NCBI GenBank assembly: GCA_945875545.1 | Contig: CAMCKZ010000010.1 | Location: forward strand, 1 to 57,043 | Origin: Polyangium aurulentum | GTDB taxonomy: Bacteria; Myxococcota_A; Polyangia; Polyangiales; Polyangiaceae | Direction of reading: 5' to 3' | Length of the DNA stretch: 57,043 nucleotides | Shown here: positions 41,187 to 45,417 of the stretch, piece after piece | Numbering within the stretch: the first letter of the stretch is position 1 | Layout: the number at the start of each line of letters is the position of its first letter | Translations under genes and position numbers: made by a program | The notes under the pieces: model-generated | What the model saw: only the letters and a program-made list of their open reading frames with translations | Databases searched by the model: none | What the model was told of the DNA's origin: nothing

Positions 41187-42206
41187 TCAGTCTTTCCAGA
41201 GAAATTTCCAGGGATTTCGCTTGAGATCGCGCACGAGCGTTTGAATGTCGTCGTAGAGCGCGTCGTCCATCAAAACCGCTCCGACCGTGCCCTGCCCCTT
41301 CTTGACCTTGGCAAGAATGACGGCACCATCGGTGGCCATCGCGTTGCCCTTCGCAAGCAGTTCTTCTCCGTCGCGTATCGCCTTCTTGATTTTTTCGCGG
41401 TCGGTCTCGGTGCCCGCCGTCGCGTCGAGAAGCACCTTGATCGTGGCGAGCGTTGAGCGAGCGTCGGCGATGAGCGCGGGGGTTTCTTTCTGGAGATTGG
41501 CGGTCAGCGCGTCGGTGCGATCGAGCACGCGATCAATGCGCGCATCGTTGAGGCGACGGCGCGCATCTTGGGCGAGGAGAACCCCTTCGCCCGTCAGTTT
41601 ATCGACGTTGTCGATGGTGCGAGAAAACCGCTCCCGATTCTCTTCAGCAAGTTCGCGAACGACGTGCATGACCGCCGCCGAGTCGTCGGCGAGCTGGCCC
41701 AAAACGCCCTTTTTTGTGCGCAGCGTATCGACGATGCTGTCGAGAAGTTCATAGGCTTTTGCCAGGAAAAGATCGATGCGCGGTGGGTCGAGTCCGCGCA
41801 CAACGGCCCCCTCCGCGATCGACGGCCGGCCGGGAGTTCCCGGATCAACCGCGAGAAATGGCTCGCCAAGAACGGCCTGCGTCGTCACGTAAAATGTGGC
41901 GTCGTCGTGAAGGTTCGGCAGCACTTTCGCCGACACGTCGACCTTGGCGCGGATCATCAAGTCGCCGGTTTTTCGCTCCGGGGCGTGGCCGCGAAATTCG
42001 AGGTCTGTAACCTTGCCGATTTTCGCTCCGCCAATGCGCACCGCAGCACCTGCTTGAAGCGCGCCGGGATTATCGAATTCCACGAAGAAGGTCTTGGTCT
42101 TTTCGAGCCGCATTCCGCCAAGAACCAGCACAAATCCTGACAAAACAACCAGAGCTGCAACCACCAGCATTCCAACTTTAAGTTCGAGCGAGCTCTCTTT
42201 TGACAT
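41187..42206 (-). CDS. mlaD: MlaD-like MCE family lipid-binding protein
   Basis: 339 aa. One N-terminal membrane anchor (about 11-31), then one MCE domain (about 38-120: VEFDNPGALQAGAAVRIGGAKIGKV), then a long helical C-terminal part (about 150-330). In Mla-type systems MCE proteins form hexameric rings in the periplasm that carry lipids between membranes. It is the last gene of an operon with two ATPases and two permeases and is the only MCE protein. Confidence 0.93.
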   Translation of the reverse strand: MSKESSLELKVGMLVVAALVVLSGFVLVLGGMRLEKTKTFFVEFDNPGALQAGAAVRIGGAKIGKVTDLEFRGHAPERKTGDLMIRAKVDVSAKVLPNLHDDATFYVTTQAVLGEPFLAVDPGTPGRPSIAEGAVVRGLDPPRIDLFLAKAYELLDSIVDTLRTKKGVLGQLADDSAAVMHVVRELAEENRERFSRTIDNVDKLTGEGVLLAQDARRRLNDARIDRVLDRTDALTANLQKETPALIADARSTLATIKVLLDATAGTETDREKIKKAIRDGEELLAKGNAMATDGAVILAKVKKGQGTVGAVLMDDALYDDIQTLVRDLKRNPWKFLWKD

Positions 42207-42253
42207 GCTGTCGCCTCTAAAAATGCGCGGCCGAGATCGCGCTCAATTGCTGT

Positions 42254-43045
42254 TCAACCAAACTCCATGGGCCCATCGGCGAACCCACCCACAAACTGCC
42301 GCACGACTTCGTCTTTGGTCTCGCGAAAGTGCGCCCGGTCTCCCACGGCTCGAACCCCGCCGCGGTAAAGCATGACGATGCGGTCGGCGATGCCGAAAAT
42401 GCTCGTGAGATCGTGACTCACGACAATGGCCGTCACGCCGAGAGTGTCCGACAATTCGCGGATCAAGGTATCGACGCGGCGCGCGCTCACGGGGTCGAGG
42501 GAGGTCGTGGGTTCGTCGAAGAGAATTACCTCGGGATTCAACGTGAGGGCGCGGGCAATGGCCACGCGTTTCTTCATGCCGTCGCCGAGTTCACCGGGAA
42601 AACGCTCGCCATAACGGCCAAGGTGCACCCGCTCCAAAAGGCGCTGAGCTTCCACAAGGGCTGCTCCGCGGGAAAGGCCCCGATGCTTTTCCAAAGGCAA
42701 CGCAATGTTTTCGAGGCAGTTCATGGAGTCAAAAAGTGTCGCGTACTGAAACACCATCGCCACGCGTTTTCGCACCGGAAAGAACTCCTCTTCCGTCAGG
42801 CGACTGACCTCCACGCCGTCGAACCACACGTCTCCCGCGTCCGGGCGAAGAAGACCCACGAGGTGCTTGATGGTCACGCTCTTGCCTACGCCCGACCCGC
42901 CGATCACGAAGAAAACCTCGCCTTTTCGCACGTCAAATGACACGCCGTCCAAAATCGTTTTGTCGCCGAAGCTTTTGCGAATGCGGTCGAAGCGCACAAT
43001 GACGTCACCTTCGCCCGGGTGCTTTGAAAGGGGCGCGATCATCAT
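42254..43045 (-). CDS. mlaF: MlaF-like ABC ATPase with altered signature motif
   Basis: 264 aa from ATG 43045, which overlaps the stop of the upstream permease (ATGA). Walker A GGSGVGKS (49-56), Walker B FDEPT (176-180) and the H-switch in VVSHDLTS are normal. The signature is not: GELGDGMKKR (LGDGM at 153-157) replaces LSGGM/Q. The other ATPase in the operon has the opposite defect. This supports a heterodimer with one canonical and one degenerate site. The frame extends upstream but overlaps the permease. Confidence 0.9.
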   Translation of the reverse strand: MMIAPLSKHPGEGDVIVRFDRIRKSFGDKTILDGVSFDVRKGEVFFVIGGSGVGKSVTIKHLVGLLRPDAGDVWFDGVEVSRLTEEEFFPVRKRVAMVFQYATLFDSMNCLENIALPLEKHRGLSRGAALVEAQRLLERVHLGRYGERFPGELGDGMKKRVAIARALTLNPEVILFDEPTTSLDPVSARRVDTLIRELSDTLGVTAIVVSHDLTSIFGIADRIVMLYRGGVRAVGDRAHFRETKDEVVRQFVGGFADGPMEFG

Positions 43046-43860
43046 AGGCCGACCAAAAATGCGCTCGCACTGATGAAGAAATTGATGACGATGATCGCGA
43101 GGGACGACAGCACCACGGCCGCGGTGGTGGCACGCCCCACGCCCGCCGAACCACCCTCGGCCGCGAGGCCGCAATGGCACGAACAAATTGGAATGGCGGC
43201 TCCGTAGGCGAGGCTCTTCGTGAGGCCCGTCGCCACGTCTCCGAAGTCGACGAGGGACAGATTCACGAAGACGTCGAGGCGCACATCGAAGGCCACAAGG
43301 GCCGTGAGCGCGCCTGTGGCGTAGGCAAGCCCTGAGCACAAAACGATGACCACAACGGTCATTACGAGCGACGCCAAAAATCGCGGAACGACGAGAAAAT
43401 CCACCGGATCAGCGGCGCATAGGCGCAGCGCATCGACCTGCTCGGTGACGACCATGGAGGCTGTCTCGGCGGCCATTCCGGCGCCCACGCGGGTGGCCAG
43501 CATCAGTCCACCAATCGTGGGGCCGAGTTCGCGCACGAGCAGCTCGGCGTAGTTCGCGCCAACCATGGAGTAGTCGGGCACGATGCGCCCAAGCTGCACG
43601 GCGGACTGGTAGACGAGAATCATGCCGATGAAGGCCATGGTGAGCGCCAAAAAAGGTGCCGACCGGTTGCCGATCTCGAACGCCTGAAGGGCCGTGGCAC
43701 CCTTGGGGCGCGAGCCGCGAAACGTGAACCAGAGGGTGCGCAGAAACAGACTCACGAGCGCGCGCACGCCGCTCACGGCATCGAGGGCCACGCGGCCAAG
43801 CTTGACGAGGGGCCGCTCGTGAAGAACGAGGGGCTGGGGCGTCTCAAGAGGACTTCCCAT
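43042..43860 (-). CDS. mlaE: MlaE-like permease (second copy)
   Basis: 272-aa permease of the MlaE/YrbE family with about five to six membrane segments and the conserved ELGPTIGGLMLATRVGAGMAAETASMVVTEQVDAL segment (cut short here by the display limit: EL-GP-T and VTEQVDAL are the key parts). It shares the A of its start with the stop of the other permease (TAATG) and overlaps the ATPase start by ATGA. Differences from the sister protein suggest specialised halves of one transporter. Confidence 0.9.
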   Translation of the reverse strand: MGSPLETPQPLVLHERPLVKLGRVALDAVSGVRALVSLFLRTLWFTFRGSRPKGATALQAFEIGNRSAPFLALTMAFIGMILVYQSAVQLGRIVPDYSMVGANYAELLVRELGPTIGGLMLATRVGAGMAAETASMVVTEQVDALRLCAADPVDFLVVPRFLASLVMTVVVIVLCSGLAYATGALTALVAFDVRLDVFVNLSLVDFGDVATGLTKSLAYGAAIPICSCHCGLAAEGGSAGVGRATTAAVVLSSLAIIVINFFISASAFLVGL

Positions 43861-44687
43861 TACGGCACCACAAAACTGAGGAAATAATCAAGCGCGAAGA
43901 TGCCTGTCGCGCTCGCCACGACACTTGCTTTCACCGACCGCCCGACGCCCGGCGCGCCGCCCGTGGTGGCGAGGCCAAAGTGGCAACTCGAAAGTGCGAC
44001 AATGAAGCCGAAGGCGACGCTCTTGATCAGGCCATGGGCCACATCTTTGAACTCGATGAGGCCGCTCGTGAAACCGTTGTAGAATCCATGCATCGTGAGA
44101 CCCACGAGAACCTCGCCGGCCAACGCCGCACCGACGAGAGCCAGCACGTCGCTGAAGATCGTCATGAGTGCGAGAGTCGCGATGAGCGCAAAAAATCGTG
44201 GAACGATGAGGTACGCGATGGGGTCGATCGCGAGGGCGCGAAGGCCGTCGACCTGCTCGGTTACGACCATGGTGCCGAGGTCGGCGGTGTTGTTCGCACC
44301 GACCCGCCCGCTGATCATGAGAGCGGTCAAAAGTGGGCCGATTTCCCGCAAAACGCCGAAGCCCGCGCCCCAACCCAAAAGCCCCTCGGCGCCAAAACGT
44401 TGAACAACGGGCGCCGCCTGGATGATGACGATGGCACCGGTGAAGAGCGCCGTGACTCCGACGATGGGCAGCGACTCAATCGCCATAAATTCCATGTGGC
44501 GCACAAGTTCGCGTCGATCGAGCCGCGCGGGGGTGCTTCGCGCGGCAATGCGCGACAGCAGGACGCCCATCTGCCCGACGGTGGCGGCTTGCAGCAGCAC
44601 ACCGCCCCCGAGGCTCGCGACGAAGCCGCGAAGGTCACCCCATACACGGTATGGAAGGCGGCTAGAGAGGGCCATCAGGAAGCCCAT
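43860..44687 (-). CDS. mlaE: MlaE-like permease (first copy)
   Basis: About 275 aa from ATG 44687 (ATG 44675 is possible), overlapping the end of the upstream ATPase. It has the MlaE membrane pattern and the conserved FGVLREIGPLLTALMISGRV and VTEQVDGLRAL segments. The start region holds a perfect gapped palindrome, CCATAC-ACG-GTATGG (44640-44654). A longer start at 44744 would lie deep inside the upstream gene. Confidence 0.9.
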   Translation of the reverse strand: MGFLMALSSRLPYRVWGDLRGFVASLGGGVLLQAATVGQMGVLLSRIAARSTPARLDRRELVRHMEFMAIESLPIVGVTALFTGAIVIIQAAPVVQRFGAEGLLGWGAGFGVLREIGPLLTALMISGRVGANNTADLGTMVVTEQVDGLRALAIDPIAYLIVPRFFALIATLALMTIFSDVLALVGAALAGEVLVGLTMHGFYNGFTSGLIEFKDVAHGLIKSVAFGFIVALSSCHFGLATTGGAPGVGRSVKASVVASATGIFALDYFLSFVVP

Positions 44688-45417
44688 TGATAAATTGATA
44701 CACGCGCGGATCTGCTGCATTTCTGGCTTCGGCGACGGTGCCATCGAAGAGCAGTTGCCCGTTGACGAGCACCCCGACGCGATCGCAAATCGGGAGCAGG
44801 CGATCGAGGTCGCTTGAGACCGCGAGGCATGTGGACCCAGACGCGGTGACGTCGCGTTTGATGAGGTCGAAGAGGCGCTGAGACGACACGGGATCGAGGC
44901 CCGCCGCGGGCTCGTCGAGAATCAAAAAGGGTGGACGCGTGATGGTGGCGCGCGCGAAGGCCACGCGCTTTTTCTGTCCGCCGGAAAGCCCCGCGGGCAT
45001 GCGGTCTTGAAAGCCGGAAAGAGTCACGCAATCCAAGCGTTCTTTCACCTTTTCGCGAACTTCGTCGTCACTCGGACTGAAGAGCCGACGAAGGGGAAAT
45101 GCGATGTTGTCGGCGACGGTGAGGTCGTCAAAAAGGGCGTTGTTTTGAAAGGCCATGCCGATGCGCCGGCGTAGCAGCTCGAGCTCCAACGGTGCCGCTT
45201 GACCGACGTCGATGGCATCGAGGGCCACGAGCCCCTCTTCTACCTCCAGCAGCCCGACAACCGTTTTGAGAAGCACACTCTTGCCCGCCGCACCGGGCCC
45301 CACAAGGCCGTAAATGCAGCCCGTGGGAACGCACAGACTCACGTCTTTCAAGACCCAACGGCGGTCGCCGCGGCGCCTATCGACCAGCCGAACACCCAGC
45401 GAATCCAAGCGGATCAA
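44662..45417 (-). CDS. mlaF: MlaF-like ABC ATPase without H-switch histidine
   Basis: 251 aa from a TTG at 45417, which follows GGGAGACG; no better ATG or GTG is present. Walker A GPGAAGKS (40-47), canonical signature LSGGQ (144-148) and Walker B LILDEPAAG are intact. The H-switch histidine is replaced by serine: LAVSSDLDRL, where VSHDL or VTHDL is usual. It is the first gene of the Mla-like operon and pairs logically with the downstream ATPase that has an altered signature. Confidence 0.85.
   Translation of the reverse strand: MIRLDSLGVRLVDRRRGDRRWVLKDVSLCVPTGCIYGLVGPGAAGKSVLLKTVVGLLEVEEGLVALDAIDVGQAAPLELELLRRRIGMAFQNNALFDDLTVADNIAFPLRRLFSPSDDEVREKVKERLDCVTLSGFQDRMPAGLSGGQKKRVAFARATITRPPFLILDEPAAGLDPVSSQRLFDLIKRDVTASGSTCLAVSSDLDRLLPICDRVGVLVNGQLLFDGTVAEARNAADPRVYQFINGLPDGPL

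Follow-up and report, generated by a model that had tools for sequence, protein, structure and literature searches.

Organization of the locus

The analyzed DNA (the window) is a stretch of 57,043 nucleotides from Polyangium aurulentum, and contains a five-gene operon encoding homologs of the Mla lipid transport system, which we refer to as F', E', E, F and D (Table 1). All five open reading frames are open and tightly packed on the minus strand: F' and E' overlap, E' and E share a single base, E and F overlap by 4 bases (ATGA), and a gap of 47 bases separates F from D. Pfam assigns ABC_tran domains to F and F', MlaE domains to E and E', and an MlaD domain to D, in agreement with the initial annotation of two distinct MlaE permeases and one MCE protein within one operon.

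Table 1. Features of the operon in the window.
Feature	Positions	Strand	Description and evidence
Operon F'-E'-E-F-D	45417-41187	minus	Two MlaF-like ATPases, two MlaE permeases, one long MCE protein
F'	44662..45417	minus	MlaF-like ABC ATPase, 251 aa, TTG start; signature intact, H-switch His absent; predicted degenerate-site ATPase
F' signature	44974..44988	minus	LSGGQ, intact; predicted to complete the consensus site with F
F' H-switch position	44812..44814	minus	Codon AGC, Ser for His (sequence)
E'	43860..44744	minus	MlaE-family permease; PF02405 E=3e-64; PDB matches MlaE and YrbE1A/B
E	43042..43860	minus	Second MlaE-family permease, distinct clade; PF02405 E=4e-53; SH-aLRT 100
F	42254..43045	minus	MlaF-like ABC ATPase; Walker A/B, Q and H intact, signature degenerate; predicted consensus-site ATPase
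F signature	42575..42589	minus	LGDGM, degenerate (for LSGGM) (sequence)
F H-switch His	42413..42415	minus	Intact (sequence)
D	41187..42206	minus	Long MCE protein; PF02470 E=3e-10

The host genome is a draft of 3.5 Mb in 188 contigs, with a completeness of 97.5%. The downstream open reading frame, which we take by eye from its sequence to be FAD-linked oxidase-like, and the divergent upstream one, presumably an SNF2-like helicase, look unrelated to the transporter operon. No gene for MlaB (STAS) lies within the operon and no MlaA was found in the host genome, which encodes one MlaC-family protein, on a contig other than that of the operon. A second MCE operon, of the type E-F-D, is present on contig C12 of the same genome (L077:4886-7922). 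Its sole ATPase itself looks degenerate: Walker A is kept (GLPGAGKTS), and the Q-loop Gln (VVFDRGG), the signature (SLDESEKRR) and the H-switch His (VYTDAD) are lost.

As most orthologs of E' align only from approximately residue 36–45 onward, the real start of this gene is probably an internal ATG, at position 44687 or 44675. D consists of a transmembrane helix (residues 2–29), an MCE domain (approximately residues 37–139) and a subsequent helical stretch of approximately 160 residues. The AlphaFold2 (AF2) model of D is confident only for approximately residues 1–160 and gives the long helical stretch low confidence; no C-terminal barrel is predicted in this low-confidence part. D is similar to the long type of MlaD, which is reported to be the one found most often outside Proteobacteria (PMC10665443). 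Between E and F, at L162:7735-8535 and at six loci related to it, lies a gene for a small protein with the look of an outer-membrane β-barrel (weak Porin_4 match), a possible outer-membrane partner. In one genome an FHA-GGDEF (diguanylate cyclase) gene occupies the position between E and F (L053:7319-8257).

Complementary lesions in the two ATPases

Within F we identified the motifs GGSGVGKS, VFQYATLF, LGDGM, FDEPTTSLDP and VSHDL, and within F' the corresponding GPGAAGKS, AFQNNALF, LSGGQ, LDEPAAGLDP and VSSDL. F thus has a normal H-switch but LGDGM in place of LSGGM, and F' a normal LSGGQ but a serine at the position of the H-switch histidine, both as noted in the initial annotation. The LSGG motif of an ABC ATPase serves the ATP site of the partner subunit. 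The defect of F' lies in its own H-switch and that of F in its signature, and therefore both fall in the same composite site of an F-F' dimer. Drawn from one genome alone this is a weak inference, because random single lesions (in Walker A, Walker B, Q, H or signature) would by our arithmetic share a site in about one of three cases.

The AF2 model of F' comprises a complete nucleotide-binding domain (NBD) with a pLDDT of 95 and a pTM of 0.90. Its best Foldseek matches in the PDB are chains of E. coli MlaF, with mycobacterial MceG also among the best, and it superposes on MlaF 6xbd with a TM-score of 0.94 at 33% identity. Judged by this model, F' is a well-folded NBD and no relic. A sequencing error or a pseudogene was rejected as the source of the substitutions, as the same changes recur in independent genomes throughout the phylum and the F' model has the high pLDDT given above. 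In a phmmer search of F against the PDB the Opp/Dpp ATPases rank at the top owing to the summed contribution of two NBD repeats; MlaF provides the best single-domain matches. MlaF is also the best NCBIfam model for F and F', yet both score below its equivalog cut-off.

Conservation of the lesions among Myxococcota

We surveyed the motifs in relatives including Sorangium cellulosum So0157-2, Polyangiaceae, Sandaracinaceae and Lujinxingiaceae (all Myxococcota), counting distinct sequences: 109 of F', 97 of F (95–97 scorable, depending on the motif) and, as controls, 38 of MlaF from single-ATPase systems. The controls comprise Myxococcota paralogs and proteins from Omnitrophota, Krumholzibacteria, Desulfobacterota, Veillonellaceae and others. 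In all 38 the catalytic glutamate, the histidine, the signature serine and the second signature glycine are present, and the first glycine is present in 36.

In F', the pair of catalytic glutamate and H-switch histidine occurs as Glu/Ser (63 of 109), Glu/Thr (2), Asp/His (40) and Asp/Ser (4), and never as Glu/His. The H-switch is thus Ser or Thr in 69 sequences and His in 40, and every one of the latter carries an aspartate for the catalytic glutamate. Walker A, the Q-loop and the D-loop of F' are retained, and its signature reads LSGG[QM] in 107 of the 109, the exceptions being LAGGL and ISGGQ (one each). F shows the reverse: the Walker A lysine, the Q-loop glutamine, the catalytic glutamate and the histidine are present in every scorable sequence (His in 96/96), and an intact LSGG in none of 96. 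The first signature glycine of F is never a glycine; the motif is spelled LGDGM in 50 sequences and FGDGM in 12, next to other GDG forms, SDG, GPS and rarer forms including SSG and PAG. Among the order-level relatives the pattern is uniform, with LSGGQ and Ser/Thr at the H-switch in 42/42 F', and His and a degenerate signature in 42/42 scorable F.

The aromatic residue of the A-loop is present in 95/95 F versus 68/102 F', where the alignment column is gappy; read from this alignment, its loss in F' is a third decay at the same composite site. Over its whole length F is better conserved than F', with a mean column entropy of 1.22 versus 1.68, yet its signature varies more than that of F'.

Every sequence read across Myxococcota follows the complementary pattern. 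A relative in which neither ATPase has lost either motif would have spoken against the initial annotation, and none was present among the 109 F' and 97 F sequences. The annotation's placement of both defects in one site, with the other site canonical, extends from the window to the phylum: the lesions of the 109 F' and the 96 scorable F all map to one F-F' composite site. The serine at the H-switch is typical of the order and class of the window; F' proteins from other classes of the phylum retain the histidine and have aspartate for the catalytic glutamate. To judge from these sequences, the conserved property is the loss of catalysis in the F'-side site and not the serine as such; Asp for Glu, like Ser for His, would be expected to abolish turnover here. 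The survey thus indicates that one composite site is held intact while the other decays, via two alternative routes in F'.

Co-occurrence, linkage and phylogeny

Of 59 relatives, 42 carry an ortholog of E'; the set of E', F' and F is complete in 40, wholly missing in 15 and partial in 4 (fragmented drafts). Fisher tests on these 59 relatives, with presence sets drawn by hand from score gaps and relatedness ignored, gave p-values of 2.6e-12 (E'/F') and 4.2e-10 (F/F'). Across the phylum, E' was detected at E<=1e-50 in 153 of 379 sampled genomes; at this level F' cannot be told from other MlaF-like ATPases by profile scores alone, and the co-occurrence counts therefore refer to the 59 relatives.

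The operon is split in several genomes that nevertheless keep every one of its genes. In L079 and L081, F', F and D lie together without E', which points to F-F' as a unit. In L080 the genes F'-E-F-D are together with E' elsewhere, and both L080 and G009 demonstrate that E' and E can be unlinked. Many genomes carry F' apart from E', E, F and D (e.g., L087 and L090-L095). Two further genes were observed near F' in other genomes. A YscJ/FliF-family gene (PF01514, E=1.3e-21) at L065:7523-8314 and at 12 other loci of the window's order usually adjoins F', and is not found at the operon of the window. The gene directly upstream of F' at L168:7537-9090 and at 33 other class- or phylum-level loci encodes a TPR-repeat protein whose signal peptide is lipoprotein-like.

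Trees of the ATPases and the permeases were constructed by quick searches, with SH-aLRT as support. F forms one clade (support 99), and F' occupies one side of a branch with weak support (67). F' splits into two subclades. One is the Asp/His type, with sequences from the wider phylum and from L218, a draft genome of Oligoflexales; the other is the Glu/Ser type, with those from the order and class of the window. Further decay, to Asp/Ser, is seen occasionally. In the permease tree E forms its own clade (100), and E' is not strictly resolved in a set that contains a very long paralog branch. The Oligoflexales genome encodes the same five-gene system (L218:2117-6114), which may extend beyond Myxococcota or may have been transferred.

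Comparison with known systems

By its permeases, MCE protein and ATPase family the operon, as read from sequence, belongs to the Mla/Mce (type VIII ABC) transporters. It falls outside the classical MlaFEDCB and Mce1 systems, which have one ATPase gene whose product forms a homodimer with two canonical sites; the operon has two ATPase genes, neither of them fully canonical. MlaFEDB of E. coli, a type VIII ABC transporter with homologous MlaF, MlaE and MlaD, consists of one MlaF (a homodimer, PMC7367683), one MlaE, MlaB and a short MlaD, whereas the operon encodes two ATPases and two permeases, has no MlaB, and has a long D. Moreover, E. coli MlaF has a 25-residue C-terminal handshake extension (PMC7367683), which is lacking in F and F', as these stop at or just after QFxxGxxxGP. 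Like the operon, the mycobacterial Mce1 system has two different permeases of the MlaE family, which form a heterodimer there (YrbE1A/YrbE1B), and MCE proteins of the long helical kind (PMC9882608), but it has six different MCE proteins instead of one, and its permease heterodimer sits on a homodimer of MceG instead of two different ATPases (PMC9882608; PMC10517005). The long-MlaD EFD system of Veillonella parvula resembles the operon in its long MCE protein with a helical extension and in the lack of MlaA and MlaB (PMC10665443), but has a single E and a single F, and its D ends in a β-barrel, which is not predicted for D here. Of the heteromeric complex proposed in the initial annotation, the novelty lies in the ATPase pair; two different permeases are already known from Mce1. 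A literature search of openly licensed papers yielded no MCE system with two ATPases or with a degenerate ATP site.

The logic of the lesions is that of TAP1/2, TM287/288, BmrCD, ABCG5/G8 and Pdr5, in which one NBD has a lesion in Walker B or the H-switch, in several cases joined by a signature lesion in the other NBD, affecting one site (PMC7756269, PMC4046567). As in transporters with such degenerate nucleotide-binding sites, one composite site takes the lesions of both NBDs and the other is fully consensus, here over 200 sequences. These exporters have other permease classes, and export, whereas import is the direction mostly assumed for Mla/Mce systems.

A probable asymmetric lipid transporter

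Together, these results make it highly probable that the operon encodes an asymmetric type VIII ABC (Mla/Mce) lipid transporter of the inner membrane, in which an F-F' ATPase heterodimer with one consensus and one degenerate site is combined with an E-E' permease heterodimer. We infer the formation of these heteromers from the way the sequences have evolved and from the joint presence of the genes; homodimers of F and of F' are in principle conceivable as well.

The gene order, F'-E' followed by E-F-D, resembles two modules, and E' and E are separable (L080; G009), as would be the case if two transporters, E'2F'2 and E2F2D, each with a homodimeric ATPase, were encoded in one operon. We consider this improbable: an F2 dimer would carry the broken signature in each of its sites, and an F'2 dimer would lack the histidine or the glutamate in each, leaving no reason for the other motifs to stay perfect. 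In addition, the window has a single MCE gene for two transporters, and F', F and D travel together apart from E' in L079 and L081. Even less likely is a regulatory or structural role for F', as an ATP-binding subunit outside any standard composite site with F. Although F' is without a key catalytic residue in every genome, it keeps a complete NBD fold with Walker A, Q-loop, D-loop and a near-invariant LSGG, the last of which would be superfluous in a non-dimerizing subunit. We attach an equally small probability to an F-F' heterodimer that still hydrolyzes ATP at both sites, the substitutions being neutral. Slow turnover is indeed kept at some degenerate sites of known transporters (PMC4046567), but the lesions are limited to one site, arise by two routes in F' and by many spellings of the F signature, and include the change of Glu to Asp that is also found in the degenerate site of BmrCD (PMC4046567).

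In the asymmetric transporter that we favor, F and F' would form an obligate ATPase heterodimer beneath the E-E' permease heterodimer, and a ring of D, presumably a hexamer like those of known MCE proteins, would lead into the periplasm. The E-E' pair would correspond to YrbE1A/B of Mce1. The gene order, with F' next to E' and E next to F, suggests F'-E' and F-E contacts. The canonical site, composed of Walker A/B, Q and H of F and the LSGGQ of F', would hydrolyze ATP, and the site composed of F' and the broken signature of F would bind ATP with slow hydrolysis or none. If it behaves like TM287/288 and BmrCD (PMC4046567; degenerate sites reviewed in PMC7756269), ATP is expected to stay at the F'-side site while the F-side turns over, so that one ATP would be hydrolyzed per cycle, as in ABCB, ABCC and ABCG heterodimers. 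The substrate could be a phospholipid or a fatty acid/sterol, going by the family only. A further-reaching proposal is speculative and on balance doubtful: that these operons represent a distinct, phylum-wide class of MCE transporters in which, unlike in the homodimeric Mla/Mce systems, transport takes its direction from an asymmetric one-stroke ATPase and may be lipid export towards the outer membrane.

With such a transporter the asymmetry of degenerate sites, long debated in exporters (TAP, CFTR, ABCG5/G8), would enter a class of bacterial lipid transporters whose solved members have homodimeric ATPases, and would bear on the disputed coupling of ATP to the direction of lipid transport in Mla/Mce systems. 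The replacement of Glu by Asp versus that of His by Ser at the same site would constitute a natural experiment on the losses that a degenerate site requires. With the canonical MlaF paralogs, nature may also provide a comparison of a one-site and a two-site version of the same machine, often within the same genome.
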